22,786 bases of DNA from a virus: IMG/VR virus record IMGVR_UViG_3300024054_000151, positions 1-22,786 of that record; one strand, written 5' to 3'. Numbering within the stretch: position 1 is the first letter of the stretch; every line of letters starts with the position of its first letter. The notes under the pieces were generated by a model. That model searched no databases and was not told the DNA's origin. It saw only the letters and a list, made by a program, of their open reading frames with translations. A program made the translations under genes and the position numbers. This document shows positions 1,793 to 16,006 of this stretch, in pieces.

Positions 1793-2029
1793 TTATAACC
1801 TAGATTCTAAGTTGGTAATCCGTGCTGCGTGATCTGCCATGCGCTCGCGCATGTCGGCGTCACGGTCGATGAGAATATCAAGCTTGTCCACGAGCTTCTG
1901 CACTGCGGCTTCGAGTCGTCCGATTGCTTTCGTGTTGTCTCCTGTGTCGTGTTGTCCGCGAACGAGCCATACGATGACAGCAAGCGCATATGCGCCGAGA
2001 GTAAGGAGGTTGTCTGAAAGCCATGTCAT
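1793..2029 (-). CDS. Small protein with N-terminal TM helix and coiled coil
   Basis: This is a 78-aa protein. Residues 6-23 form one hydrophobic helix (LLTLGAYALAVIVWLV), and residues 35-78 form a heptad-rich amphipathic coiled coil with regular Leu/Ile/Ala spacing. Its start overlaps the stop of the preceding secreted-protein gene in an ATGA, and the protease gene follows after 8 nt, so it is translationally tied to both. The topology (one membrane helix, long helical tail) is that of i-spanin-like, antiholin-like or holin-accessory proteins. I recognise no exact family. A lysis or lysis-timing function is inferred from context. Confidence 0.6.
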   Translation of the reverse strand: MTWLSDNLLTLGAYALAVIVWLVRGQHDTGDNTKAIGRLEAAVQKLVDKLDILIDRDADMRERMADHAARITNLESRL

Positions 2030-2844
2030 ACAAACATCGGCCCCTCTTCACGAGACGATACCCACATTTGAGGAAGGTCGGGGACTTGTGGCGGGGGACT
2101 GCCGCCACCTGACGAAGGGGCAATCGAAGCGAGTACCTGCCCCGTGTATTGAAAGGTCGGCGTAACTGTCCAGTTAGACGCTTGTGTGCCCGATGGTGTG
2201 AATGGCCCTTCGTATCCCATAGCAAAGTCTGCTGCGAGTGTGGCGTTGGTGTTCTCAAGTTCCTTGGTTTGCCCTGATGCGGCTGTAAAATTTACGTCAG
2301 TTCCGTGCGTGTGCAGCACGGCGGAGACGATCCATGCGTTATCGACGGTCGTGTTGATGTTGAGGGAACTGCCGCTGCCGCCTGCGCCGCCGAACTCGCT
2401 CTCTTGTGCGTTCGCTGCTATCGGGCTTGCGCTATCAACGCCCGTGAAAGAGATGACGCCGATGACGCAGGTCACGTTGGAAACGGTTGTCACTGCCACT
2501 GTTCCTGTTCCGCCGCTCGCGGTGTAGTACCGCCACATGGAGATGAGCTGTCCAGCGCCAGTGTTTTGGGTCGTGCCTATCTGCGTCAAGGCGTTGCCGT
2601 TCCATGTGATGCCGGAGTGTCCGATGCTGGCGCTGCCAACTGCCACGACAATCAGACTATTTGCCGCTGCGGTGTAAGAAAACGTGTTGCCGGTGCCTGT
2701 GTTGTTGCATGTTCCGGCTTCCTGCAGCTGGCTCGTGTCTTTGGCTATGGCTGCGTATGCGGTGCCAGGATAGAAGGCGAACAGCCCAATGATGAGAACA
2801 GTCGCAAGGATTATGCTGCCGATTCTTTTGAGTGTTTTTTTCAT
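2026..2844 (-). CDS. Secreted beta-rich protein, fibre/adhesin-like
   Basis: This is a 272-aa protein starting MKKTLKR, followed by a hydrophobic core (residues 8-24) and a cleavage-like TAYAA site around residue 31, which is a textbook Sec signal peptide. The mature part is Gly/Thr/Ser/Asn-rich and beta-strand like, with two Cys (CNNTGTG early, VTCVIG later). It contains ITWNGNALTQIG and WIVSAVLHTHG, a style found in exported adhesin-like domains. The C-terminus is Pro/Gly-rich (GGGSPPPQVPDLPQ) and looks like a tether. The ATG at 2844 begins 1 nt after the stop of the 881-aa fibre gene; an ATG at 2856 would add four residues in front of the signal peptide and overlap that gene. It is probably a partner of the fibre, on the virion or on the cell surface. 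I do not recognise a named family. Confidence 0.6.
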   Translation of the reverse strand: MKKTLKRIGSIILATVLIIGLFAFYPGTAYAAIAKDTSQLQEAGTCNNTGTGNTFSYTAAANSLIVVAVGSASIGHSGITWNGNALTQIGTTQNTGAGQLISMWRYYTASGGTGTVAVTTVSNVTCVIGVISFTGVDSASPIAANAQESEFGGAGGSGSSLNINTTVDNAWIVSAVLHTHGTDVNFTAASGQTKELENTNATLAADFAMGYEGPFTPSGTQASNWTVTPTFQYTGQVLASIAPSSGGGSPPPQVPDLPQMWVSSREEGPMFV

Positions 2845-2845
2845 A

Positions 2846-5491
2846 CTAATCGGCATCGGTTCTTAGCTGCGGCGAGACAGTAATCACATTCGGGCTGCTC
2901 GCCCTCGTGCCGATGGCGATGTACATGTATTGGCCTATCGTCCACGTCACGGACGTGGTGTTGCGCGTGCTGCTGGTGGTGCATTGCATCGTGCTCGATG
3001 CGCTGCCGTTGCCGACGGTGACGTAGGCGGTTCCTGTGTCGGTGTCGCAGTACAGTCCCAAGAGCGTGAGCGGCCGGTGCGTGCGCATCATTTTGATGGT
3101 CGTAGTGCCAGAAGCGCCGAACGCGCCTCGGTAGGTGAGGGTCGATGACGCGAACGGCAGCCCTGCCATGCCGTCGGGGAAAAGGGCGCGTTCCGCTGTC
3201 CCGTCGTGATAGCGCAGCGATGAAGATGCCTGTGTCTGGTCGATGGCGAGTTTCGCGGAGGCGTCTACGGTCGGGTTCGATGCCGAAGGTATCTTGAGCC
3301 AGCCGCCAATCGTGGTGTTGCCCGCGCTGTCGATGCTTGTCGTCGCGGTGCCGCCGAACCATGCGCTGTATGCGGATAAGAGACTCGACGTGGCGTTTGC
3401 GAAGGTCTGTAGCGCCGTCCATGAATTTGCGTTCGCCATGTTGAGCGAGAGTGTGCCAGCCGCGCCGCCTACAAGTGCGCCGAAGGTGCCGGAGTACGAG
3501 AGGCTGCCGCCGATAGTGACGGAGGTGGTGGCGACGCCGTACACACCGGCGGCACCATTGGAGACGAGAAGGTTGCTGCTTGCAGGCTGCGAAGTAGTGG
3601 CAAGACCGGTCCACGTGACGGTGCTATTGGAGCCGCCGACGAGTGCGCCGAGCGACGAGAAGCCGGAGAACGGGCCAGAGAACGACAGTGATGTGGTGGC
3701 AACGGTGCCGAGGGATTTCGCGCCTGTCCAGTATGCGAGGTTGCCGGTTGAGGGTGCGGATGAGGTGGAGATGCCGTCGAAGGAGAGCGTGTCGCCCGTG
3801 AGGACGATGGGCCAGGTGGCGGATAGGTTGGTGTCAGCCGAGATATCGACTGTGGCGCAGGTGGCGACTCCTGCCCCATTGAGCGACCTGACAAACTGAT
3901 TGGTGCATGAAGTACCGGCGTATTCTGCTGCAAGGCCGTTTGCGTCTGTGAGTATGAGCGCCGAGGTAAGCGTCGGGAACCATGCACTGCCCGCGACAGT
4001 CAGGCCGGTCGTCGATGCGTTGGTGAACAGTGTCGTCGAGGCGAGCACCATAGTGTCTTTGAGCCACAACGGGGTCGTGGTGCTCTGGTTTGCGACTCCG
4101 TTGTATGAAGATGGCGTGAACGGCCACACGCCGCCACCCGCTGACGGCCATGTAGTGCGGCAGGTGTCGAGACAGATCGTGCCGGATGACAGGACGGTGG
4201 ATGAGGCATTGCCGAATGTCTGCAACGCGCTCCATGTGTTCGTGTCGGCAAGCAAGGTCGAGGATGCGGCGGTAATCGTGATGTTCGCGGTGCCGTCGAA
4301 CGAGACGCCGTTGATAGTGCGGGCGGTTTGCAGGGCGGTGGCGGTGCCAGCGTTGCCGGAGATGCTGCCGGTGATAGTGCTACTGAATGTGTTGTTGCCG
4401 GAAAAGGTGTTGTTGTCGGCCAAGAGTGTAGTGGATGCGACGGTGACTGAACCGCCGACGCTCAATGTCTGTCCGTTGATGGTGCCGAGAGTGCCGGTGA
4501 GTAGGTTCGTGCCGATACTCGTAGTCGCGGTAAGACGCTGATTGGCGTCGAGTGCAAGGAGCGAAGAAGCGGTGATGCCCGTGAACCACGGTGCGGCGGT
4601 GAATGTAGCGAGCGACGTGGTGCTGTTGGTGATGGTCTGCAATGCGCTCCAGCTGTTCGCCGTCGTTGTGCCGAATGCGAGCGAGATGGTGTTGGCGCTG
4701 TTTTGGAGTGGGTAGGTGAACGTGAGTGCCGCCTGCTTGCCGTTGAACGTCGTCCAGTCGGCCGAGGTGAGGAAGCCCTTTGCCGCGCCGCTCGCCGCTT
4801 GTCCATTCGTGTAGTCAATCGAGATGTTGCCGCTCGCCGCATCGAAGTCATTGGCGGCGAATGATGCCGCACCTTTGGTGCTGCCGTCCGCTGCGGCGTT
4901 TGCGATGCTCAAAGAACCGCTGCCGAGCACGGTGAGCGAGCCGGATAGCGGGCTGTTGATGGTGGCCGAGCTGGTGGCCGCACCGTACACCCCTTGCCCG
5001 CCATTGGAGACGAGAAGGTTACTCGATGAGGGCTGCGAGGTCGTCGCAAGTCCCCACCACGTCCACGTCGTGTTCGAGCCGCCGACCAAGGCCCCAAGTG
5101 TCGCGGGGATATTGGCGGGGAAGCCCGAGAGGGTGAGCGTGGTGGTAGCCACCTTGCCGAGGGTGGCTGGTGTCGCGTTGGTGGATGTCCAGTACGAGAG
5201 TTGCCCCGCGGTCTCGCCGGTGGAAGTGGCGACGTTGCCGGAGCCGCCACTTCCTGATCCGCACGGTGATCCGGTAGTCGTTGCGATGTTGGAAGCGGTG
5301 AGTTGCAGACAGCCGCCAGGGGTGAGTCCGGTAAACTTGATGGGGGTGTTGGCGACGTTCTGCGTGATGTTGCCGCCGCTCGTTTTCCAGGGATTGAGCT
5401 GGTAGATGGTGCCTGTTTCGGCGTGGGCAAAAACGCCGTAAGCGAAGAAGGCGAAGGTGACGACGAGTAGTGCGGTGAGTTTTTTGTACAT
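2846..5491 (-). CDS. Large repetitive fibre protein with Sec signal peptide
   Basis: This 881-aa protein begins MYKKLTALLVVTFAFFAYGVFAHA, a signal peptide with cleavage after AHA near residue 24. The rest is Thr/Ser/Ala/Gly-rich, typical of trimeric beta-structured phage fibres. Residues 90-178 and 581-660 are diverged copies of one module (LGALVGGSN ... GLATTSQP.SSNLLVSNG). Three units of the form N(S/T)W(S/T)ALQT(I/F).N(S/A)(T/S) are spread through the chain. The last 100 residues differ (TLLGLYCDTDTGTAYVTVG) and could be the receptor-binding tip. I chose the ATG at 5491, 14 nt after the upstream stop; the longer frame to 5557 adds a charged stretch in front of the signal and overlaps the upstream gene. 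The repeat style matches proteins I know from Parcubacteria. A signal peptide on a phage fibre is unusual. Confidence 0.7.
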   Translation of the reverse strand: MYKKLTALLVVTFAFFAYGVFAHAETGTIYQLNPWKTSGGNITQNVANTPIKFTGLTPGGCLQLTASNIATTTGSPCGSGSGGSGNVATSTGETAGQLSYWTSTNATPATLGKVATTTLTLSGFPANIPATLGALVGGSNTTWTWWGLATTSQPSSSNLLVSNGGQGVYGAATSSATINSPLSGSLTVLGSGSLSIANAAADGSTKGAASFAANDFDAASGNISIDYTNGQAASGAAKGFLTSADWTTFNGKQAALTFTYPLQNSANTISLAFGTTTANSWSALQTITNSTTSLATFTAAPWFTGITASSLLALDANQRLTATTSIGTNLLTGTLGTINGQTLSVGGSVTVASTTLLADNNTFSGNNTFSSTITGSISGNAGTATALQTARTINGVSFDGTANITITAASSTLLADTNTWSALQTFGNASSTVLSSGTICLDTCRTTWPSAGGGVWPFTPSSYNGVANQSTTTPLWLKDTMVLASTTLFTNASTTGLTVAGSAWFPTLTSALILTDANGLAAEYAGTSCTNQFVRSLNGAGVATCATVDISADTNLSATWPIVLTGDTLSFDGISTSSAPSTGNLAYWTGAKSLGTVATTSLSFSGPFSGFSSLGALVGGSNSTVTWTGLATTSQPASSNLLVSNGAAGVYGVATTSVTIGGSLSYSGTFGALVGGAAGTLSLNMANANSWTALQTFANATSSLLSAYSAWFGGTATTSIDSAGNTTIGGWLKIPSASNPTVDASAKLAIDQTQASSSLRYHDGTAERALFPDGMAGLPFASSTLTYRGAFGASGTTTIKMMRTHRPLTLLGLYCDTDTGTAYVTVGNGSASSTMQCTTSSTRNTTSVTWTIGQYMYIAIGTRASSPNVITVSPQLRTDAD
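3512..3751 (-). repeat. Fibre module, copy B (residues 581-660)
   Basis: This segment encodes the second copy of a module that is also found at 4958-5224 in the same fibre gene. Shared landmarks are LGALVGGSN, GLATTSQP and SSNLLVSNG followed by GVYG.AT. At DNA level a 20-nt stretch at 3555-3574 is identical to 5001-5020. The spacing between copies is about 1.45 kb. Confidence 0.8.
4958..5224 (-). repeat. Fibre module, copy A (residues 90-178)
   Basis: This is the first copy of the duplicated fibre module, with the same order of landmarks as copy B plus a roughly nine-residue longer N-terminal part (STGETAGQLSYWTSTNATPA). The copies have diverged clearly, so the duplication is not recent, though the 20-nt identical core could still support recombination between them. 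Confidence 0.8.
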
Positions 5492-5504
5492 ACGTATCGT
5501 TGGA

Positions 5505-7232
5505 TTATTTTGTTGCTTTTCGTAGGCCCTTGCCTTTTGTTGCAGGTGTTGTACCATTTTGGAATGGCAATCCTTGAGACGATTTTTGCAGTGCTTGTCG
5601 CGCAGTGGATTCTGCGGATGTTTGGGCGGAATTGACTTTCGGTGTAGATGAATAAGTGCGCTGAAAGCGTCCTGTTTTTGGGTTTACGGTAACAGGATTT
5701 TTTGTCGCCGGAACAGACATTACACTTGACATATCGCGCATTGGCATAATGAAAGGTCTATTCGGTGATCCAAGCGGAGGCGCGGGTGGCAAAGCAAGCC
5801 GACTGGCGCGGTCAATTCCTTGCTGTTCGATCCACTGCAATGCCTGTCGATATGCAGCAGGGTTTTTAGTTTCAAGGTTTTTTAGAATAAGTCTCTTTAC
5901 CGGGCCTGCTACTGAGTTGCTGATAAGTAGGTTTGCCACTGCATCACCGCCAAGTGCACCGAGTATTTTTGTGGGAATAGAACTACCCATCGTTGAGCCG
6001 ATGGTCATAAGGACATATTTACCAAGGCGTCCACCCTTTACTGTCTTACCGTGCAATGAAGAAAGAAAGTCTGCGGCGTCAAGTCTGCTGCCAATTTCAC
6101 GATTGAGCTGGGCGACATCAGCATATCCGGCTTTCTCGGCCGTATCTTCAATCGTTTTTTGAGCCGCTTTACCGATAAGATAATTGACATCTGCCTTGAG
6201 TGGCTTTGAGGCATCCCATTTTTTATCTGCCCACCGAGCAGACTTTATGTCGTCCACTTTTGTGAGTAGTATTTGTTGGCCGTATGATGCACGATATTCT
6301 GCAAATGATTTTCGTATCTCCCTGACGAGTCCGGCAGAATTACCAGAATCAATGTTCTTTTCTGATTTTGCAAGTGAGATTGCCTTGAATTCAAGTTCTG
6401 ACAGGTGTGTCTTTGGTACTTGGTACTCAATTTCCTTTATTGCAGACCTGTTGGCTTCACGAAGCGGCTTGATTGAATGTCGAAATGTATCGGCCTGTTC
6501 GAGTGTTTCAAGGATTGATCCATTTTGTTTTGGAATGATGCCACTTTCTGCGAGGATGCGCTCGGGCGGCAAACCGGTTGTGCCTGCCTTATTCATCATC
6601 TCAGTCTTTGATTGACCTCGGGCGAGTGCGTTGCGTGTCTTGACGGTAGTGCCTGCGAGATCGCGGTATGTTTGTTCCAGTGCGTCAATATGTTTTGCTC
6701 TAATGTTGGGAATACTGACGGTATCTTTTGCTTTGCCAAGTGCGTTTTTCGCGCCTGTGACGGCGGGTTTCGCGCCAATTAGTCCTGCGACTGCTCCTGC
6801 TACAGTGGTCGTATCTATGATACCTTGCGCTATTTTTGTTGGCAGGTCTGGGCGTGTGTCGTCAACAGAACCAAGCCCATATTCTGTAAATGGTTTGGTA
6901 TTACTCAATGCGTCCCCTCCTTTTTCAACGAGAGGCGCGACGGTACGATTCATTATTGGAGCGAGTGGTGCAGATATGGTATTGATTCCTCCTGCGAGGG
7001 CATGAAAGCCACCAGCAACACTTTCAACAAGATTTGGTGAGGTGGTTCGTTTCAATCCTTCGCCAATTTGCCGTACACCTCCCATGAAAGCATCTTTGAT
7101 TTCACCGCCAATGGATGATTGCAGTGTTGTTTGCTGAATCGGTTTGACGCCAGCCTGCGCCATTTGCTGTGATAGCGAACCCGCCTGCGGCTTGAAACCT
7201 GCCTGCGCCATTTGTTCTGCGAGAGTTGCCAT
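5505..7232 (-). CDS. Probable internal/ejection virion protein (575 aa)
   Basis: This is a 575-aa protein. The N-terminus has a duplicated motif, LAEQMAQAGFKPQAG then LSQQMAQAGVKPIQQ (residues 4-33). Residues 50-110 and 140-165 contain Gly/Ala-rich hydrophobic stretches (VESVAGGFHALAGGINTI; TVAGAVAGLIGAKPAV). The middle is mainly helical and charged, and residues about 400-450 hold two more hydrophobic stretches. The C-terminus is basic and disordered (ATKGKGLRKATK). A large helical protein with amphipathic membrane-prone segments, encoded beside another such protein and between hub and fibre genes, fits the DNA-ejection proteins of podoviruses. The name is by context; I see no enzyme motif. 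A sample of its DNA is markedly AT-richer than the fibre genes (about 40% GC at 6241-6300 against 68% at 3301-3360). Confidence 0.5.
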   Translation of the reverse strand: MATLAEQMAQAGFKPQAGSLSQQMAQAGVKPIQQTTLQSSIGGEIKDAFMGGVRQIGEGLKRTTSPNLVESVAGGFHALAGGINTISAPLAPIMNRTVAPLVEKGGDALSNTKPFTEYGLGSVDDTRPDLPTKIAQGIIDTTTVAGAVAGLIGAKPAVTGAKNALGKAKDTVSIPNIRAKHIDALEQTYRDLAGTTVKTRNALARGQSKTEMMNKAGTTGLPPERILAESGIIPKQNGSILETLEQADTFRHSIKPLREANRSAIKEIEYQVPKTHLSELEFKAISLAKSEKNIDSGNSAGLVREIRKSFAEYRASYGQQILLTKVDDIKSARWADKKWDASKPLKADVNYLIGKAAQKTIEDTAEKAGYADVAQLNREIGSRLDAADFLSSLHGKTVKGGRLGKYVLMTIGSTMGSSIPTKILGALGGDAVANLLISNSVAGPVKRLILKNLETKNPAAYRQALQWIEQQGIDRASRLALPPAPPLGSPNRPFIMPMRDMSSVMSVPATKNPVTVNPKTGRFQRTYSSTPKVNSAQTSAESTARQALQKSSQGLPFQNGTTPATKGKGLRKATK

Positions 7233-7233
7233 A

Positions 7234-8802
7234 TCATTGGTTCAAGAACTGCTGCACGGCTTCTTCGCCGTATTGTGCGATGGCGTCTTGCAGGTCGGAT
7301 TCGGAGATGCCTTTCTGCGAGGCGGCTGCTGTAAGATTTGAAGAAACATTATGTGTTGCGTAATCGACAAGGAAACTGGCACCATCAGACCTGCCAGTAA
7401 GATTGTTGATATTTTGTATGTACTGATTATTGGCGTTGTCGTAACTACGTTTTGAGGATTGGTACTTTGATTCAATGGTCTTTTTTATGTTTTCGCGTGC
7501 CTGCTTTGACAAGAAACCGGTTCCGGCTATTGCCTGTGTAATGCCTTTACCATAAGCATTTACCCATGATTGTGCATATTTCTGCGCAGTGGCATACTCA
7601 CCCTCCCTTACGACGCTTCCCGGATCGAGAGCTTTAGCGAGAGAATAGATAAGTGCTTGGTCGTCGGCTGGGTTCCGCGTATTCGCGTCAATTGATGTTG
7701 CGAAATTATATCCCTCCTGAACGGTAGCGAAGTTCTGTACAACTGGTTCGGTCGAGTACTGGTTTACTTTTGCTCGAACTGCAGTAGCAGTAGTACTCGA
7801 AAGGCCGGAATATAGTTGCTCATTCGTTCCAACTCCACCACCGCCAACGGATGCTGCTTTATTTGGCGTTAATCCTTTCCCGATTGCGATAATCTTCGAC
7901 GTGTCGCCGTCCCAATTCGACGGCATGAACAGAAGCCGGTCGCCTGCATCAACGGATTTGCTATATTCGGGAGGCAGCCCGAGGTCTGTGGATTCGATTT
8001 GAATCTTGCCGGTGAGCGGATTTTGCGTGGCGACGATGTAGTAGCCGTTCTCCACGCGCTTATCGAGAATCGTCTCCTGTGGCCGGTTGAGGGTGAAAAG
8101 CGCTTTGAGGCGCTGTTCGCCGCCGAGCTGCTGGGCAAGGTGAGCATAGGAGTCGGGGTCGGTCGCTTTGAGGCCGTCGGCCGTCACACCTCCCTTGGCG
8201 AGGTCGGTGAGTTGGGTGACGGCTTCCTGGGCGCGCTCAGTCTTGCGCTTGAGGATGTTTTCTGCACTTGCACGGGCGTCGAGGCGGCTCTGGCGGGCTT
8301 CTTCGAGGGCACTTGCGCGGATGTTACTGAGAAGCGACTGGATAGCCACGGCACGCTCGTTCTGTATCTTGGCATTGTCCTTTTGGTTTATCTGCGTTGT
8401 TTCGTTCGCGGCTCGTCCTGCTTCGCTCGAACCTGCAAGCCCCGTGAGCACAGACACAGAATCTGTGCTGCGTGAGCGGCCCTCGTTGATGGTCTTCTGT
8501 TCGGCAAGCAGGTCGTCGTAGTGGCGAGTGAGCGCGTCTATCTGGCCTTGGGCGGCTTGCATCTTTTGAGCTTGTATCTGCTCTGTGGTCTGGGGAGATT
8601 GAAAGGTGTCGAGGTAGTCCGATGCAGCCTGTTCGTTGGCGGTGTAGCGGGGGACGTAGGTAGCAGGTGCGGCGGGTGTAGTAGCGGGTGTGGTTGGAGT
8701 AGAATGCGTTGGAGTTTTCGACGCATTGTACGCCGCGACACGCTCGTTATACTGCGGTATCGTTTCCTCTGCCTTCTTGTAGTAAGTGGTGTCGGTTGGC
8801 AT
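7234..8802 (-). CDS. Probable internal/ejection virion protein (522 aa)
   Basis: This is a 522-aa protein. Residues 30-55 are a Thr/Pro/Ala linker, and about 60-215 are long alpha-helical and coiled-coil like, rich in Gln/Ala/Arg/Glu. A beta-containing middle follows, then a helical C-terminal half. The motif LAKALDPGSVVREGEYA (about residues 385-400) is one I know from structural or internal virion proteins of tailed phages, where a DPGSVVRE element is recurrent. It starts three nt after the fibre stop at 8806, and its stop lies 1 nt from the next ATG (7232), so the two large proteins are co-expressed. A role as ejection or tail-lumen protein is inferred. DNA composition shifts inside the gene: the 3' part is AT-rich (37% GC at 7441-7500), the 5' part GC-rich. 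Confidence 0.55.
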   Translation of the reverse strand: MPTDTTYYKKAEETIPQYNERVAAYNASKTPTHSTPTTPATTPAAPATYVPRYTANEQAASDYLDTFQSPQTTEQIQAQKMQAAQGQIDALTRHYDDLLAEQKTINEGRSRSTDSVSVLTGLAGSSEAGRAANETTQINQKDNAKIQNERAVAIQSLLSNIRASALEEARQSRLDARASAENILKRKTERAQEAVTQLTDLAKGGVTADGLKATDPDSYAHLAQQLGGEQRLKALFTLNRPQETILDKRVENGYYIVATQNPLTGKIQIESTDLGLPPEYSKSVDAGDRLLFMPSNWDGDTSKIIAIGKGLTPNKAASVGGGGVGTNEQLYSGLSSTTATAVRAKVNQYSTEPVVQNFATVQEGYNFATSIDANTRNPADDQALIYSLAKALDPGSVVREGEYATAQKYAQSWVNAYGKGITQAIAGTGFLSKQARENIKKTIESKYQSSKRSYDNANNQYIQNINNLTGRSDGASFLVDYATHNVSSNLTAAASQKGISESDLQDAIAQYGEEAVQQFLNQ

Positions 8803-8805
8803 AGG

Positions 8806-10206
8806 TTAGATCGTGTACCACCGAACGACGACGATGCCGCCGGTGCCAGCGCCTCCTGCCGGTGTTCCTGCTGCCCCGTCGCTTGCGCCGCCCCCTCCTG
8901 CGCCATAGCCGACGCCCGCGCCACCGTTGCTTGTGCCATCGACGGAACCAGGGCCTCCATGACCGAAGACAGACTCGCCGCCATCACCTCCTAAGACAGT
9001 CGCGGTGCCGGAGAAGTGGCCAGTGCCGCCGGTGCCGCCAGTTACTCCGAAATCACCATTTGTCGTGCTGCCGCCTGCACCTCCCGCAGTGCCGGTGTTA
9101 TCGCTTCCGCACGAACTGCCGCCGGTGCCGCCGTTTGCGGTTATCGTAGTTGCTCCTGCGAAAGAAGAGTTGCCGCCGTTGGTGCCGGTGCCGCTGCCGT
9201 CGGTATCTCCTGCGCCTCCTGCGCCGATGGTGACAGTTACGTTGCCGGTGACGGATACTATTGCGCGCGCGTATCCGCCTGCTCCGCCGCCTCCTGCCGC
9301 ACATTCGCCTGTAGCAGATGCTCCGCCCCCTCCTGCGCCGCCTCCCACAACTTCGACTTCGACTTTCGATACATTCGATGGTTTGACCCATGTGCCGTTC
9401 GCCGTGAAGACGGTCGTTGTTGCTTGCGGGTAGGTGTAGAGAGTCGTGGTCGAAATGAAATAGTTATCAATCTTTCCGCTATTCTGCGTCACCACGATAC
9501 GCAAAGGAGCAGTCGCGCTGTTGTACGTTGAAGTGGCAGACGACGCGGGAATGGCGAGATTGCCAGAGCTGCCTGCTGATGTGGATGATGCCGATTCGAT
9601 TTGAGTGGCGAGTTCAACGACGCCTTTTGCAACTGCCGTCGCGTCAATGACGCCTGCGCCATTGAATGCGAGTCCGGTGATGAACCCGTAATCGCATATT
9701 TCATCGGCGCTCGCGCAATCAGGTGTGGTCGTAGAGTATTTGAGTATATTGTTGTAGGTGTCCTCGCCGTTTGCCTGTGCTTTGAGGATTTGAATCACGG
9801 GGTAGTCGGTTATTTTCACGCTCGCGCCGCGACGGTGGGCGAATTGCAGCGCAGATACTGTCGTCGTGCCGGTTGCCTGCGAGATGCCGCGCGACATGCT
9901 GGTGACGGATGTGCCGGAGATGGTGCCGCAGACGGTCTCCGCCTGTGCGCTTCCTTCATCAATCGTAAAGCACTGGTAGCCCGACAGTGATCCGCCGCCG
10001 CGCACGGAATTGGCGGAAAGCGTCATGCTGGTAGCCGATGACGTGATCGGTGCGGCAAGCGAAGTCTCGAAGTTAGCGGTAGCGCTCGGCAGAGCTGCGC
10101 CAAGTGACGGTACCTGGGACAGCGGCACCTGCGGCTCGGGCGAACCGGTGATGAACCCGACGAGAGAAGAAAGAATGAAAAGTGTTGCAAAGAGTATGTT
10201 GGCCAT
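8806..10206 (-). CDS. N-terminally anchored fibre with glycine-rich receptor-binding-like domain
   Basis: This is a 466-aa protein. Residues 2-20 (ANILFATLFILSSLVGFIT) form one hydrophobic helix without clear AxA cleavage, so it is a signal anchor or a lipid-free signal. Residues about 45-175 hold a domain with GYQCFTIDEG, MSRGIS, FAHRRGASVKITDYP and a Cys pair in PDCASADEICDYG; I know this layout from many Patescibacteria proteins. Residues 288-460 are strongly Gly-rich (GGGAGGGG and similar) after the phage-type sequence VFTANGTWVKPSNVSKVEVEV, which resembles Gly-rich tail-fibre or adhesin tips. Start ATG 10206 lies 37 nt after the hub-like gene; the upstream frame extension only shadows that gene. 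Probably a host-recognition fibre. Paired Cys suggest folding outside the cytoplasm. Confidence 0.65.
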   Translation of the reverse strand: MANILFATLFILSSLVGFITGSPEPQVPLSQVPSLGAALPSATANFETSLAAPITSSATSMTLSANSVRGGGSLSGYQCFTIDEGSAQAETVCGTISGTSVTSMSRGISQATGTTTVSALQFAHRRGASVKITDYPVIQILKAQANGEDTYNNILKYSTTTPDCASADEICDYGFITGLAFNGAGVIDATAVAKGVVELATQIESASSTSAGSSGNLAIPASSATSTYNSATAPLRIVVTQNSGKIDNYFISTTTLYTYPQATTTVFTANGTWVKPSNVSKVEVEVVGGGAGGGGASATGECAAGGGGAGGYARAIVSVTGNVTVTIGAGGAGDTDGSGTGTNGGNSSFAGATTITANGGTGGSSCGSDNTGTAGGAGGSTTNGDFGVTGGTGGTGHFSGTATVLGGDGGESVFGHGGPGSVDGTSNGGAGVGYGAGGGGASDGAAGTPAGGAGTGGIVVVRWYTI

Positions 10207-10243
10207 AAGTGAATAGTAACGAATGGTAATGGTTTTGTAGCGA

Positions 10244-12136
10244 TTATATTGTATGGGCAGGTATACTTTTTTTCCCTTTGTCGCGGATGTCCTTGAACGT
10301 GATGGAGTGAACCGACACATACCCGACATCCTGGGCTTCAAGCTTGACGCGCACAAAATTGAACCGGTCTGAGTTTATGGGAAAATCTATCTCGTAAGGG
10401 GACGCACTAGCGTCGCCGCCACCACCGAGGATTTTTGAGCCGATGATGGGATTACCGATAGAGGTCAAAACGCCGGTATCAACGTATGAGCCGTCACCGT
10501 CGATAGTCTGTACCTCGGTAAACGCGCCGCCATCATAGGAAAGAGATACTTTGAGCGATTGATTTGGTTGTATCAGTCCGTCGATGACCATTCGGCGGCA
10601 GGTTTTGAGGTGGTCGGTGCCGAGATTGAGGTCGGAAGAAGTCCAGTAGTTTGATATAACATCTCCATCTTCATCGAAGCCGGAAAAAATAGTGTACACG
10701 TTGTTCGTAACAGAATCACCTGCGACAAGCGTACCGCCGTACGTTGCAAGGCATGATGCGTAGTAGTCGAGCGCGTCCCATGCGCCGGAAATGACGTTGC
10801 GGACGAACATGCGCGAGTTGTACTCATTTGCGACGCCTGACACTTTCTCCTGCACGCAGAAAATCTCAAAGTCGCCCCAGCGATACGCGACGCAGTAATC
10901 AAACGAATACGACGAAAGGTCGAGCGCGTCCGATATTGAAAGCGGCTCGATGGTGGTTGAGTTGGTGCCTTGGAGGACTTGGAGGCGGCGAAACTTCGGG
11001 TCGGTCGGGCGCGAGAGGTCGGCGAATATGATACCTTCGGGTGTCTGCCACGCTGCGCGGGGATACGGTATGCCGATATTGCGATAAACAAGGTTTGTAG
11101 AGGTCGTGTCGTCGAGCGTCGCGGTGAATTGCCATGTCTTCAAGAGATGGAAGCAATACTCGATGTTGTTGATGTTGAACACAGCCATGAGATTGCCGCC
11201 GCCGTCATCTTGGCGGAATGATTTACCCTGTCCGTTCGCTGACCCCGAGTAATCGAGGATGCCGGTGCTTGTGGCTGTCTCGTGGTAGTAGGAACAGGTG
11301 ATGGCTTGAAGATTCGCGGGAGCGACGGCGAACGTGACGGATACCGCGCCGGTCGCGTAGTTGACAGTGCCGGTGCCACCTGCGCTGCCGACCATGTTTC
11401 CATTGCGGTCATCGGTGAATGTCTCGGTGCCGTCGGTAACAGATATGTACATGGCAGTCTTAGGCGCTGAAATGGCTGCGAGTGTATGCGCGAACGTGGT
11501 GGTGGAACCGTCGCCAGTGCCGTATGCCTCGCCGGTAACTTGCGTGAAGCTCGAAAGCTGCGCTTTGTCGATATACGAGAGATAGAGGCCGGTCTTGTCG
11601 TTATTCCCTGCCGTAGTGCCGTTGCGCTGACCCGCAAAAGAACGGTTTTGTCCGATATGGAAGACGCCAAAACGATATGTGGTAACTGACTGGTTTACGG
11701 CACTCCCTGGATTTGCTGCTGGTATCTTATAAATGCCAGAATTAGGGGAACCGAGGTACATGAATGAACCGGCGAGTCCTTGGTACGCTTGAAACCATAC
11801 ATCCTCGCCGTCTGCACCGCTTGGTAATAGATTGGTGCTGACTTCTATAGCATCATCGGTGGCTACATCGTAGTATTTGACTTTTCGTCCATGGGAGTAC
11901 CACGGAATCTCGGTGCCGTCGTAGCGGATGCCGATGCCGAGGCCGGTTATTTTTCCTGTCCCTGTCTGCTCTGTGGTGCCAAGACGCGCGTAGCCACGTC
12001 GCAATTCGATATGGTCTTTATGCGTTCCCGTTATCCAGTTCTTGCTGTCCGGCGAGTATCCTGGCTTGAGGGTCTTGATGTCTTTTACAGATGTCTGCAA
12101 GCCTAGAAACTCGCTCAAGACGAAATCAGGAATCAT
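10244..12136 (-). CDS. Tail hub / P22 gp10-like beta-rich tail protein
   Basis: This is a 630-aa protein. It opens with a conserved style, LKPGYSPDSKNW followed by ELRRGYARLG (residues 23-53), that I associate with hub or nozzle proteins of short-tailed phages, which are beta-propellers. Regular strand repeats with Trp/Tyr/Asp (AWQTPEGIIFADLSRPTD, WGDFEIFCVQE) continue to the C-terminus. Residues about 201-290 (GEAYGTGDGSTTTF ... GAVSVTFAVAPA) look like an inserted Ig-like or carbohydrate-binding-like module. It overlaps the adaptor gene by 11 nt. Position after the adaptor and absence of tape-measure or tube genes support a podovirus tail role: closing the portal channel and forming the tail tube. 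The P22 gp10 or T7 gp12 equivalence is inference from order, size and fold style. Confidence 0.6.
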   Translation of the reverse strand: MIPDFVLSEFLGLQTSVKDIKTLKPGYSPDSKNWITGTHKDHIELRRGYARLGTTEQTGTGKITGLGIGIRYDGTEIPWYSHGRKVKYYDVATDDAIEVSTNLLPSGADGEDVWFQAYQGLAGSFMYLGSPNSGIYKIPAANPGSAVNQSVTTYRFGVFHIGQNRSFAGQRNGTTAGNNDKTGLYLSYIDKAQLSSFTQVTGEAYGTGDGSTTTFAHTLAAISAPKTAMYISVTDGTETFTDDRNGNMVGSAGGTGTVNYATGAVSVTFAVAPANLQAITCSYYHETATSTGILDYSGSANGQGKSFRQDDGGGNLMAVFNINNIEYCFHLLKTWQFTATLDDTTSTNLVYRNIGIPYPRAAWQTPEGIIFADLSRPTDPKFRRLQVLQGTNSTTIEPLSISDALDLSSYSFDYCVAYRWGDFEIFCVQEKVSGVANEYNSRMFVRNVISGAWDALDYYASCLATYGGTLVAGDSVTNNVYTIFSGFDEDGDVISNYWTSSDLNLGTDHLKTCRRMVIDGLIQPNQSLKVSLSYDGGAFTEVQTIDGDGSYVDTGVLTSIGNPIIGSKILGGGGDASASPYEIDFPINSDRFNFVRVKLEAQDVGYVSVHSITFKDIRDKGKKSIPAHTI

Positions 12137-12830
12137 ACCGATTGACAGTTCCTAGTCGCGGGTAAGCGTAGAGGTCGGTCGGATCATTGGTGTCGAGTGT
12201 GGAGAGAGCGCGTTCGTCGTCCCACTTTTCCATTGCATTTTTGAGCGATTGCATGACGGCGAAGTTCTGCGGCGACTGGCGAGCCGAGATGGTGTCGTAG
12301 TCAACGCCGCCTTGATAGATGCCGATGGCGTAGAAGCCGAGAAGCGGGAGAAATCGAGAAGGGAACAGCGACCACACGGCGCTTGCGCTGGTGAGGTCTA
12401 TCGCGGTCGATGTGGCAAGGTAGTTGAGGTAGAGGGTGCCGTTGAACGCTACCACGCCGTTGAAGTACAGATTGCCCGCGTTCTCGTCATAGACGAATGT
12501 GCCGCCTGCGTCTTTGTATTCGAGCCGTCGGTCAAAAGGAACTTGTCGGTAGTAGTCTATGCGGTTTGAACCATCGAACAGGCGTATCGGTGTATCGCTG
12601 TAGAAGCGCGAGAAGTCGGTGATAGTGGACAATGACTTGGCAGTCTGCCAGGTGTTGCTCGTCGTGAGCGAAAGTGAAGTGTCAGTCTTTCTCAACACCA
12701 TCCACGGGCGTTCTTCTTCGATGATGGTGCGAGCGGTGTTGACCAAGACATCGAGAAGGTCGGCGTCGATTGCGGCCCCACTGTTGAGAGAGGTGATGAA
12801 TGTAGAAAGCTGCGCTCCGGTGGAAATCAT
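12126..12830 (-). CDS. Putative head-tail adaptor/connector
   Basis: This is a 234-aa protein with an N-terminal helical part containing LLDVLVNTARTIIEEERPWMVLRKTD (quoted here only as landmark; residues about 24-50), a beta-rich middle (VYDENAGNLYFNGVV) and a helical C-terminus rich in acidic residues. The 'LL..A..IIEEERPW..L' start is one I have seen in phage structural proteins encoded just before the tail hub. Its start overlaps the preceding stop as ATGA and its end overlaps the hub gene by 11 nt. By order (portal, scaffold, capsid, adaptor, hub) it is the likely counterpart of P22 gp4 or T7 gp11. There is no catalytic motif. The function is inferred from context. Confidence 0.55.
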   Translation of the reverse strand: MISTGAQLSTFITSLNSGAAIDADLLDVLVNTARTIIEEERPWMVLRKTDTSLSLTTSNTWQTAKSLSTITDFSRFYSDTPIRLFDGSNRIDYYRQVPFDRRLEYKDAGGTFVYDENAGNLYFNGVVAFNGTLYLNYLATSTAIDLTSASAVWSLFPSRFLPLLGFYAIGIYQGGVDYDTISARQSPQNFAVMQSLKNAMEKWDDERALSTLDTNDPTDLYAYPRLGTVNRYDS

Positions 12831-13627
12831 ACGGCGATTTTTGATATGTCGATCGGGCTCGGTTGCTGTTCTTTCGGTTGTTCCGGCTGCTGGCGGATGG
12901 CGAACGTTGAAGTGAACTCGGCCTGATCCATCGCTTGCTTGACGGTTGATTCCACTTTCTGAATGATGCTGCTTTCAAGCTTTGCGAGCATGTCCTTTAC
13001 CTCTTGAAAATCGGCACCGTTCGTTTCGGTGTCTCGCTGTATCTTTTCAAGTACGGGTGAAAGGTCAGTCGCGGGAGTCACTTCTTTTTCTTCGATAGCG
13101 CGCATCGCTCGTTCGACCGCTGTAAGAACAGGCGAAAAGTTGGGTTTTTCGATGGTCGGCTTTGCGCGGTCAATCGCGCTTAGAATCTCGTTGGTTCTGT
13201 CAACCGGCATCTGTTGTTTGGGGATTTTTACCGGCTCCGGTTTCGGAAGCTTGCTCAATTCGTCTTTGACGATATAACGAAGTTCTGCTGCGTCGATACC
13301 TCCGCCGCCGCGCATAAGCGGCATGACGCGCTCCTGCACGAGATAGGTGTTTTCCTCGTCGCCATAATTCGAGTTTTTGGTCGTGTAGCCGCTGTCCGTG
13401 TAGACCGATGTGACAATGGAGATGTAGAACCCTTGCCCCGACGGGTCGGCAGGAACCTGCCAGTCTTTCTTGAACCGCTGCGAGCCCTTGTCGGTTAGGT
13501 TGAGGGTGTCGATGATGGCATCTGTGTAGGCATTGCGGATGACGGCACGGACGTAGTTCGTGTCTGTGTCAAGGTGGTTGGCCAATTGCCGCACCACTGT
13601 GAAGTTTGCTTGCGGCTGGAGATTCAT
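12827..13627 (-). CDS. Virion-associated protein with conserved N-terminal domain and helical tail
   Basis: This is a 266-aa protein. Residues 1-100 form a compact beta-type domain (LDTDTNYVRAVIRNAYTD; RFKKDWQVPADPSGQGFY; VYTDSGYTTKNSNYGDEE). I recognise this as a recurring domain of unknown function in phage structural clusters. Residues about 110-250 are charged and helical with Pro/Lys spacers and a coiled-coil like tail (QEVKDMLAKLESSIIQKVEST); the end is Gln/Pro-rich. It follows a signal-peptide protein after 6 nt and overlaps the adaptor start in an ATGA. Structural or assembly function is likely; a more precise role cannot be read. Confidence 0.5.
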   Translation of the reverse strand: MNLQPQANFTVVRQLANHLDTDTNYVRAVIRNAYTDAIIDTLNLTDKGSQRFKKDWQVPADPSGQGFYISIVTSVYTDSGYTTKNSNYGDEENTYLVQERVMPLMRGGGGIDAAELRYIVKDELSKLPKPEPVKIPKQQMPVDRTNEILSAIDRAKPTIEKPNFSPVLTAVERAMRAIEEKEVTPATDLSPVLEKIQRDTETNGADFQEVKDMLAKLESSIIQKVESTVKQAMDQAEFTSTFAIRQQPEQPKEQQPSPIDISKIAV

Positions 13628-13633
13628 AAGCGG

Positions 13634-14176
13634 TCAGAATGTCGCGGCTCCGATGCAGGTATGTTCGCCGTCGCCGGATGCTCCTGTTAGCCCTGCTGCG
13701 CTTTCTACGACGATGCAGCGAGTCGCGTAGTACGCAGTCGTCTGTATGTCGCTCATCGAAGCGACAACGGTTGACGTGGCCCCCTCTATGGGAATCGTCT
13801 GCTGTGTCGCGGACGACGTTGCGGATGTGAGCTTGTAGTAATCATTCCAATTCGTACCATCGCGTGATGTCTGTATCTTGAATGTCGATGTGGCTGTGCT
13901 CGTCGTGGCGATACCGCCATGCGAGAAGTAAAAGGTCACTTTCTTCGCACCGGCTATGACGAAATGCCCGCCGCCGCCTGAAAGGTTGGTGGATGTGGCA
14001 GCGGTCGTCGTCGCGGAGAAGAAATCAAAACGCTCGTATGAGTTCTCTTTCGTGTCAACGCCGAAAGAGACGCCTGCAAAAGCGATAGTCGCTACCGCGA
14101 AAAGGACAAGGAAGCTGATAAGAGCAAATGCGCTGATGCGTAGTGCGTTCGTCATAGGGCTTTTATTATTACTCAT
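13634..14176 (-). CDS. Small exported protein with Sec signal peptide
   Basis: This 180-aa protein has a basic/polar start and a hydrophobic core (residues about 15-32) ending in TIAFA/GVSFG, a good signal-peptidase site near residue 34. The mature 145 residues are Thr/Ser/Ala-rich and beta-like (HFVIAGAKKVTFYFSHGG; FKIQTSRDGTNWNDYY), resembling a jelly-roll type domain. Two Cys near the end (ATRCIVVES, EHTCIGA) could form a disulfide after export. ATG 14176 gives MSNNKSP; a second ATG at 14155 would still retain the signal. A GC-rich hairpin sits directly upstream. Finding an exported protein between capsid and adaptor genes is odd for a phage. I do not recognise the family. Confidence 0.6.
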   Translation of the reverse strand: MSNNKSPMTNALRISAFALISFLVLFAVATIAFAGVSFGVDTKENSYERFDFFSATTTAATSTNLSGGGGHFVIAGAKKVTFYFSHGGIATTSTATSTFKIQTSRDGTNWNDYYKLTSATSSATQQTIPIEGATSTVVASMSDIQTTAYYATRCIVVESAAGLTGASGDGEHTCIGAATF

Positions 14177-14184
14177 AATCCCAT

Positions 14185-14207
14185 CCCAACCCCCGTGAGG
14201 GGCTGGG
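14185..14207 (-). promoter_or_regulatory. GC-rich hairpin 8 nt upstream of a start codon
   Basis: In the minus-strand RNA, CCCAGCCCC pairs with GGGGUUGGG around a short loop (UCACG). One position is A/C on the plus strand but G-U in the minus RNA, so the fold suits the transcribed strand. No U-tract follows, so it is not a standard terminator. It lies between stop 14219 and ATG 14176 and could tune translation or stabilise the processed mRNA. Confidence 0.45.
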
Positions 14208-14218
14208 TGGAATCGTGA

Positions 14219-14692
14219 CTAGATTCGCGGACACTTGCCGTACCCCCACAAGACGATGCCTTGCTGCGTTCCGCCGCCGAAACCGGCGGTGATTGAAGCA
14301 CCGTCGATGTTGAGCGTGGAAGAAGCGAAGAACATCTGCTTAATGGGCGTTGCGGTCGAGGTGGCGTAGGTCTGCACGCATCCGACGATGACGGTCGAAG
14401 TCGCGGCGTTCGTGGTGGTAACGTCGACGTTACCACCAGCGGTCGTCGTTGCGGAAGTCGTAAGACCTGTGAACGTCGCCGCCGCAGTGCTGGTGAGCGC
14501 GGCCGAAGTCGTGATGGCTCCGGTGCTCGACACCGCGAACTGGCCGGTCGTTCCCGCATCCAGGCCGTTGTAGAAGTGCTGCGTGATCTGGCTGTAGACT
14601 CCGCCGAACGTCTTGCTTTGCAACTGTGCTGCGATGAACCCTATCACCACTCCTGCGATGACACATGCGATTGCTTTGGTGATGTCACTCAT
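14219..14692 (-). CDS. Small membrane-anchored, Thr/Ser-rich protein
   Basis: This is a 157-aa protein. Residues 7-23 (AIACVIAGVVIGFIAAQ) form one hydrophobic helix. The rest is Thr/Ser/Ala-rich and fibre-like (GTTGQFAVSSTGAITTSAAL, 47-66; AGGNVDVTTTNAATSTVIVG). It ends with a Cys near C-terminal GKCPRI and another in VGCVQTYATST, so a disulfide is possible if exported. 'G.FAVSSTGAITTSAALTST' style repeats are ones I know from Patescibacteria surface proteins and phage fibres. It sits 12 nt downstream of the capsid gene. It could be a head-decoration or surface protein, or an anchored short fibre. No family was recognised with certainty. Confidence 0.55.
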   Translation of the reverse strand: MSDITKAIACVIAGVVIGFIAAQLQSKTFGGVYSQITQHFYNGLDAGTTGQFAVSSTGAITTSAALTSTAAATFTGLTTSATTTAGGNVDVTTTNAATSTVIVGCVQTYATSTATPIKQMFFASSTLNIDGASITAGFGGGTQQGIVLWGYGKCPRI

Positions 14693-14704: not shown

Positions 14705-16006
14705 TTAGTTGTTAGCGGTTGCAGCGGCAGAGAAACTCGACGAGTTGACCGCGTAAGAGACGATCTGCGGTGCTTGGTCGGTAAAGACCTTGATGCCATA
14801 GACGCACCACGCGATGTAGTCCTGACCGATACGCGCCTGCGGAGAGGGGCGATCTGTGAGGGATGGCTCCTTTTGCACGACGAGCGAGCAAGACTTCGAC
14901 AGCGCGAACAGCTGGAAGACCTTTTGCTTCGTGCTCGTCCAGGTGTCGGTCGCGTCGGTGAAGGTTTCGGAGACGACGATGGTGCCCCAGCCGCTTGAGA
15001 CAAGTGTGAGCGTGTCTGCGGAGTTGCTGTTGGTCGCTACGATGTTCTTCAAGAGCCGCTGGTTAGCGGTTGAGACGGAACTGTAGCCCGTGTTAGTCGC
15101 TTCTGCCTCGCTGTCGGCACCGGCCGAGTTGAGAAACTCGGCAAGATTTGCGCGAGTGATGTCAACGGTCGAGGCGATATGTACTTCTGCGGCACCTGTC
15201 GTGCTTGTGAGAGTCGCCTTGAACGTGATTGTCACGCCGTTGATGACGATAGTATCACCGTCGGTCGGCTGCGTGGCCATCGACAAGACATGGCTCGAAG
15301 GCAGCGCGTTCGACATGAACAGGTTGAAGCCTCCGAAGAAGCCCTCATGCCCGTTAGTCGAAACGCGGTCGCCGAGCTGCGTGTCCTTGCCGCCGAGGTA
15401 CAACTGAATGTACGTCAGAATCTGCGGCGAGATGACAGCGATCGGCATGCCGTCCGGCGTCTCGATGTTCATGCCAGCGCGGAAGCGGGTGTTGTGGATG
15501 ACGTTCTTCAGGCGCAGTTTTTCGTACGCGGTGAAGAACACTGTCATCACGTTCGAGGCAGTGACCGTGTGGCCGTTGCCGGATGTGCCGGAGAACGTGC
15601 CGTCGTCCATCGCCGTGCCAGCGCCCTGGTAGACGGCAAGCAACACGTCCGCGTCAATCTGGTTGACGAGCGCGTTTGAGAGCTTGCGGCCGTACTTCTG
15701 CTTTACCGGCAGATGCGCCTGCAAGAGATCGAGGTCTTTGATGTAGATCGAAGCCTCTTTCTCTTTGTTGATAACGAGGGTCTCCTGCGTGTCGGTGATT
15801 GCCTGCACCGAGTAGCTGCCGTCCGCACCCATGTCATTGACCATGACATCGGAGCTGTACGAGCGGGCTACCGTTTGACCCTTGGTGAGCGATGATTCAA
15901 GGCGTGTGTCGGCCAAGACCGGATAGATCGGGTCTCGGAAGTGCGACATCTGGTATTCGGCATTGAATACCGTCTTGAACGTCATCGTATTTGGATTCGC
16001 GGCCAT
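14705..16006 (-). CDS. HK97-fold major capsid protein with inserted domain
   Basis: This is a 433-aa protein. The N-terminus (TMTFKTVFNAEYQMSHF) leads into an extended arm and a spine helix-like part (LLQAHLPVKQKYGRKLSNALVNQIDADVL, about 94-122), then a P-domain-like segment with TPDGMPIAVISPQILTYIQ (183-201) and a conserved end (ARIGQDYIAWCVYGIKVF, 391-408). It directly follows the scaffold-like gene, as expected for a coat protein. Residues about 247-360 (DGDTIVINGVTITFKA ... ITRANLAEFLNSAG) look like an inserted beta/alpha module known from several phage structural proteins, probably exposed on the shell. At 433 aa it is long enough to hold the HK97 core plus this insertion. Start ATG 16006 has no Shine-Dalgarno but a small inverted repeat just before it. 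Confidence 0.88.
   Translation of the reverse strand: MAANPNTMTFKTVFNAEYQMSHFRDPIYPVLADTRLESSLTKGQTVARSYSSDVMVNDMGADGSYSVQAITDTQETLVINKEKEASIYIKDLDLLQAHLPVKQKYGRKLSNALVNQIDADVLLAVYQGAGTAMDDGTFSGTSGNGHTVTASNVMTVFFTAYEKLRLKNVIHNTRFRAGMNIETPDGMPIAVISPQILTYIQLYLGGKDTQLGDRVSTNGHEGFFGGFNLFMSNALPSSHVLSMATQPTDGDTIVINGVTITFKATLTSTTGAAEVHIASTVDITRANLAEFLNSAGADSEAEATNTGYSSVSTANQRLLKNIVATNSNSADTLTLVSSGWGTIVVSETFTDATDTWTSTKQKVFQLFALSKSCSLVVQKEPSLTDRPSPQARIGQDYIAWCVYGIKVFTDQAPQIVSYAVNSSSFSAAATANN

Follow-up and report, generated by a model that had tools for sequence, protein, structure and literature searches.

Gene organization of the locus

The window analysed here is the entire 22,786-nt stretch of the viral record IMGVR_UViG_3300024054_000151, the main genes of which lie on the minus strand and are designated below, like their products, by their lower coordinate. 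Their order begins with the small and large terminases, 19642, 17624 at the portal position, 17283, 17012, 16054 at the scaffold position and the capsid gene 14705; it continues with 14219, 13634, 12827, 12126, 10244, the fibre gene 8806, 7234 and 5505, and ends with a further fibre gene, 2846, followed by 2026, 1793, which encodes a small protein with one transmembrane (TM) segment, and 924. The terminases, the capsid protein and both fibres are named by profile matches; the T7-type gene order suggests which genes have putative roles in the portal, scaffold, tail and ejection, and would likewise make 10244 the nozzle protein. Sequence searches recovered no relatives of 10244 or 2846 in the PDB. 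About 25 contigs of close relatives were collected by two scans based on capsid and tail proteins and by a third, profile-based scan of viral contigs, and a scan with the N-terminus of fibre 8806 identified a wider phage group, in which the 10244 homologue is 34-45% identical.

Table 1. Features of the window that are discussed in the text (KD19: best 19-residue Kyte-Doolittle mean near the N-terminus; export and signal assignments are predictions)
Feature	Coordinates	Strand	Remarks
Exported beta protein (predicted)	2026..2844	-	minor tail protein-like, phrog_553 6.7e-7; two mature Cys
Predicted signal peptide of 2026	2752..2844	-	residues 1-31, AYA|A; KD19 2.22
Second fibre, Thr/Ser-rich, with predicted cleavable signal	2846..5491	-	phrog_1833 tail fibre 7.5e-11; 8 Cys
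Predicted signal peptide of 2846	5420..5491	-	residues 1-24, AHA|E; KD19 1.90
Tail fibre	8806..10206	-	predicted signal anchor, Pro-rich linker, N-terminal beta-barrel module, Gly-rich C-terminus
Predicted signal anchor of 8806	10150..10206	-	residues 1-19; AF2 helix 2-19; KD19 2.14
Tail protein upstream of fibre 8806	10244..12136	-	64-76% identity in close relatives
XepA/YomS-like beta-sandwich, predicted exported	13634..14176	-	cement-protein-like position
Predicted signal peptide of 13634	14075..14176	-	residues 1-34, AFA|G; KD19 2.59
Head-adjacent anchored beta protein (predicted)	14219..14692	-	N-terminal TM helix, GGVYxQxTxxF motif, beta-type domain, two Cys
Hydrophobic segment of 14219	14627..14683	-	residues 4-22, anchor-like; KD19 2.32
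Major capsid protein	14705..16006	-	phrog_267 major head protein 1.8e-13; KD19 of at least 1.6 in 0/29 (internal control)

Several further elements were observed in these neighborhoods. The conserved protein encoded at 924-1784, which has a counterpart at L045:15383-16315, resembles papain-type cysteine proteases by eye; it adjoins likely lysis genes and gave no Pfam match. Cys-rich proteins that by eye resemble HNH-type homing endonucleases are encoded between structural genes in L022 (11917-12477), L030 (7730-8437) and L043 (216-830 and 868-1464). A GC-rich hairpin occupies 14177..14218 (minus strand), between 14219 and 13634, and each of the 16 family intergenic regions that were folded has a predicted stem behind the capsid/14219 block (e.g. 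L014 11826-11896; L034 8430-8479), with minimum free energies of -14 to -32 kcal/mol in a folding run without shuffled control. In L034, which has no 14219, the hairpin lies directly 3' of the capsid gene, and in the record of phage P22 a stem-loop is annotated behind the capsid gene.

Hydrophobic N-termini of fibre-like and head-adjacent proteins

A preliminary description of this DNA proposed that five genes of the virion cluster begin with a signal peptide or a single hydrophobic helix. All five open reading frames were confirmed on the minus strand (Table 1), and their KD19 values of 1.90-2.59 exceed the classical cut-off of 1.6 throughout. Signals were called by rules that combine this hydropathy measure with cleavage sites: 2026, 2846 and 13634, with an AxA-type site soon after the hydrophobic segment, look like proteins with cleavable signal peptides, and 8806 and 14219, which have no convincing cleavage site, look signal-anchor-like. 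Segments of this kind, with plausible n-, h- and c-regions, have the sequence of a Sec-type N-terminus. Across the family only 1/212 control structural proteins (capsid, portal, scaffold, terminase, 17283, 12827, 12126, 10244 and 7234 proteins) reached a KD19 of 1.6, with 10244 itself contributing 0/24; beside these controls the threshold was reached by 19/20 of the 8806 fibres and by all seven 14219 members found by homology. The survey of homologous phages bore out the earlier proposal, the anchor of 8806 being kept in 20/21 family contigs and an anchor or signal in 15 of the 16 fibres of the wider group with an intact N-terminus. Likewise, the statement that ordinary podovirus fibres have no signal agrees with the annotated fibre and appendage proteins of T7, phi29, P22 and Lau218, 0/5 of which reach the cut-off. 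Two small hypothetical proteins encoded downstream of the Lau218 (L064) tail fibre, gp42 and gp44, have KD19 values of 2.06 and 1.83. As judged from these sequences, the trait is limited to the fibre-like and head-adjacent beta proteins and is deeply conserved.

It is extremely improbable that the real proteins start downstream without a signal, with the hydrophobicity reflecting a miscalled start or chance, and this explanation has already been largely refuted. An in-frame stop lies no more than 35 codons upstream of the start in 191/197 control structural genes, and the 8806 segment is open and hydrophobic in 19/19 cases vs 0.23 expected after nucleotide shuffling. Since this segment is open in every case and missing from the other frames, it is evidently translated. 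Thus, miscalled starts are ruled out by the upstream-frame test and chance hydrophobicity by the internal controls, and the hydrophobic N-terminus is moreover conserved across deep divergence. On the other side, a Shine-Dalgarno-like core is present at only 13/239 structural gene starts in the family, so that the starts are not confirmable through such sites, and the 8806 homologues of L039 and L101 begin at the downstream module. The sequence upstream of family gene starts is often AT-rich and sometimes TATAAT-like.

Homologues that start downstream of the hydrophobic segment, which the preliminary description had named as evidence against its reading, are confined to the L039/L040 and L101 lineages. 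In L039 and L040 the head-slot anchors are missing too, and the next fibre, read only in part, shows no signal. L039 is nested among anchored relatives in the 10244 tree, and the fibre of the distant L043 is anchored; loss being the more economical explanation, we regard L039 as a probable case of loss of the anchors. L101, from the wider group, provides a second case of a fibre that starts at the module. Such apparently repeated anchor loss furnishes natural controls for testing export.

The fibres and protein 2026

Fibre 8806 matches the phrog_863 tail fibre profile over residues 105-465 (1.9e-39), Gly_rich_2 (1.9e-13) and the Pam3 fibre (6.9e-8). An AF2 model of its N-terminal part (pLDDT 66.7) consists of a helix, a poorly ordered linker and a barrel. 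Among solved structures the five best matches of the barrel all come from phages and are mostly tail proteins (Z 6.9-8.8), and in a viral structure library it gave matches down to 2.8e-13, including named tail fibres. In 8806 an ordinary tail-fibre N-terminal module is thus carried behind a predicted anchor and a linker. Both the sequence profile and the tail-type N-terminal fold place it among phage tail fibres of the phrog_863 type; however, the usual fibre has no export signal, as in all cultured fibres examined, and 8806 has a predicted one. Domain content and gene order point to a role as a tail part of the virion. A tblastn search detected no cultured relatives of fibres 8806 and 2846.

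The N-terminus of 2846 is signal-like in all nine relatives with a readable slot, one of them at a KD19 of 1.54, just below the threshold, and the number of mature cysteines is even in 6/6 members counted. For 2026, the syntenic gene in L023 also carries a signal.

The head-adjacent proteins 14219 and 13634

In 18 family contigs the gene immediately after that of the capsid encodes a 14219 protein, which reaches a KD19 of 1.6 in 18/18; its motif also occurs in the form GGVYNQVTxxF in these anchored contigs, and the anchored protein is missing from L032, L034, L036, L038 and L039. Profile searches matched 14219 to no known family. Exactly two cysteines follow the TM segment in 18/19 members (L098 included). 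Small residues (G/A) recur at intervals within residues 4-22, in a pattern of about GxxxxGxxxG that might serve helix packing. A type IV prepilin-like signal was considered for 14219 in view of its short lysine-bearing leader and a glycine, but was set aside, as by eye neither a +5 glutamate nor the long helix is present.

The slot of 13634 is more heterogeneous, with a hydrophobic N-terminus in 9/20 occupants. An AF2 monomer model of 13634 (pLDDT 66) best matches XepA (Z 13.0) and YomS (Z 12.6), followed by a next match at 9.4. This low-confidence model has the C2-like beta-sandwich fold of the XepA/YomS-like proteins, but its gene adjoins the capsid-gene block instead of lying in a lysis cassette. 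Soluble proteins of 125 aa that fill this slot in relatives are homologues of 13634 (HHalign 98.2%); no homology was detected between slot family A6 and families A4 and A7. With its gene beside that of the capsid, 13634 may fairly be labelled, for now, a cement-like protein with predicted export in roughly half of the relatives.

Evidence for export

The cysteine pairs mentioned in the preliminary description are present: 14219, 13634 and 2026 each have exactly two cysteines behind the anchor or signal, and 2846 has eight. In slot 13634 exactly two mature cysteines are found in 9/10 exported members vs 0/11 soluble occupants (p = 3.4e-5 in a Fisher test that ignores relatedness), and one of the exported families is homologous to a soluble one despite this difference. 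L098 has no mature cysteine pair, which counts against the assembly route proposed below. The cysteine pair of 8806 was discarded as evidence for export, as it persists in the anchor-less L039. In three sets the net charge of the N-flank of the segment exceeds that of the C-flank in 17/19, 13/15 and 16/18 members, with the others tied; 16/18 is the value for 14219. These flanking charges predict an N-in, C-out topology. The modelled N-terminus of 8806, in which the helix and the poorly ordered linker precede the barrel, adds a third line of evidence. Export by Sec, taken as a single step, is highly probable from the sequences, because family-wide conservation, cysteine parity and topology charges all support it. 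In this regard, the first two options of the preliminary description, namely display on the infected cell and acquisition by virions, gained common support for the export step that they share.

Proposed assembly and alternative explanations

In the well-studied tailed phages, folding and docking of the tail fibres both take place in the cytoplasm. We propose that in this short-tailed phage the fibre and head-adjacent proteins may instead enter the Sec pathway of the infected cell, and that the fibres would fold and form disulfides outside the cytoplasm. 8806 and 14219 would stay tethered and 2846, 2026 and 13634 would be released; the exported parts might then be joined to tails and heads at the envelope, or once lysis has brought them together with the virions, which would give a virion with fibres that matured outside the cytoplasm. 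Taken as a whole, from Sec export and outside folding to late docking at the envelope or lysis, this chain is plausible, with the balance tipped slightly against it. More tentatively still, we suggest a two-compartment assembly, in which Sec would export and oxidise the fibres and some head-adjacent proteins, the membrane would hold them and virions would pick them up at the envelope or as the cell lyses. Soluble proteins make up half of the slot-13634 occupants, which counts against the whole chain and implies that export is not essential for this slot. Furthermore, a fibre tethered outside by its docking end must meet the tail late, and to our knowledge no such step occurs in tailed phages.

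The main rival to late docking is display, in which the exported proteins would stay on the infected or lysogenic cell without becoming virion parts, and might act as adhesins that change how the episymbiont attaches, or might block superinfection; we regard both this reading and these roles as rather unlikely. Sec targeting, the predicted C-out topology and the fibre-like, adhesive sequences are all consistent with display, as are the co-binned prophages of the metagenome-assembled genome (MAG) nzgw467 (PMC12455944), and since signal-bearing ConA/laminin-G lectins occur near the same genes in some wider-group phages, it is a serious alternative. However, 8806 keeps the N-terminal module of a tail fibre and sits between 10244 and ejection-type genes wherever the region is readable, the same gene encodes an ordinary soluble fibre in L039 and L101, and late-operon expression just before lysis would leave little time for a benefit from adhesion. 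Improbable, by comparison, is the third option of the preliminary description, in which the anchors would not be exported but be buried in the virion, packing in the tail or head or penetrating a membrane on infection. Podovirus tail tips can indeed carry hydrophobic, membrane-active segments, e.g. phi29 gp9, and 8806 is without a convincing cleavage site. Yet the most hydrophobic segment is N-terminal, where SRP/Sec would recognise it first; the 8806 linker is variable among relatives and partly disordered in the model, with no plug fold indicated; and the N-in, C-out topology, the AxA sites of 2846, 2026 and 13634 and the co-occurrence of cysteine pair and signal in slot 13634 also speak against buried anchors.

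If these proteins are exported, with late docking as proposed above or with display, then phages of this group would either use a second compartment for assembly or place proteins of their own on the surface of the infected cell. Both outcomes would bear on the infection of largely uncultured, ultra-small episymbionts and on their attachment to their own hosts.

Putative hosts and associated lectins

The close relative L022 and the remote relative L043 lie in nzgw467, a MAG of the Paceibacteria family UBA5272 with three prophages (PMC12455944). A Patescibacteria host is supported for a single close relative, L022, and we infer such a host for IMGVR_UViG_3300024054_000151 itself. A wide profile matched 2/380 genomes of the phylum, with one weak match; remote 10244 homologues were seen in Patescibacteria genomes at L104 (G203; E 4e-12) and L106 (G015:C20; 4e-9). 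A host origin of fibre 2846 was also considered, but only 1/287 genomes of the phylum matched, weakly, which gives no support to a recent origin from a common host gene. Signal-bearing lectins of the laminin-G/ConA type are encoded near tail genes in phages of the wider group (L087:2440-3249 and L088:213-1106).

Comparison with known systems

The modelled fold of 13634 resembles, at weak Z-scores of 6.7-8.2, that of the capsid cement proteins of Helicobacter phage KHP40, Pam1 and Agrobacterium phage 7-7-1, and the likeness extends to position, the gene lying next to the capsid gene. We know of no secretion signal in capsid cement proteins, whereas several slot-13634 occupants have one. XepA of PBSX and YomS of SPbeta, late proteins of Bacillus prophages, share the beta-sandwich fold; they are pentameric members of lysis cassettes, and the paper on XepA, which has no TM segment, discusses both membrane and capsid binding (PMC6834076). 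The title of the PDB entry of XepA calls it an exported protein, a likeness to the predicted export of 13634; however, unlike XepA, 13634 has a predicted signal peptide and its gene lies next to the capsid gene rather than in a lysis cassette.

Lectins of the ConA/laminin-G type have been reported in Patescibacteria phages as auxiliary genes that are proposed to aid adhesion (PMC12911398). They are putative surface proteins, like the signal-bearing laminin-G proteins of the wider-group loci, but are described as host-adhesion genes and are not placed in a set of signal-bearing fibres. According to a 2018 paper, the target proteins of phage DGRs have neither signal peptides nor TM regions (PMC6199706), and no prior report of Sec-targeted tail fibres was found in the open-access literature searched.

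Among the fibres themselves, the Gly-rich C-terminal domain of the cyanophage Pam3 tail fibre (7yfw, 7ypx) matches the C-terminal part of 8806, the anchor, linker and N-terminal module of which lie outside the matched region. Structure matches further indicate that the fibres of Burkholderia phage BcepMigl (gp23-25) and Escherichia phage ECML-117 possess the same N-terminal beta-barrel module as 8806; however, theirs lies at the extreme N-terminus without a hydrophobic segment, whereas in 8806 it is preceded by the anchor and the linker. As the module starts the protein in BcepMigl, ECML-117, L039 and L101, the module itself needs no anchor. Module, fibre and fold are thus each already known, and it is their delivery through Sec that was not encountered in the open-access literature searched.
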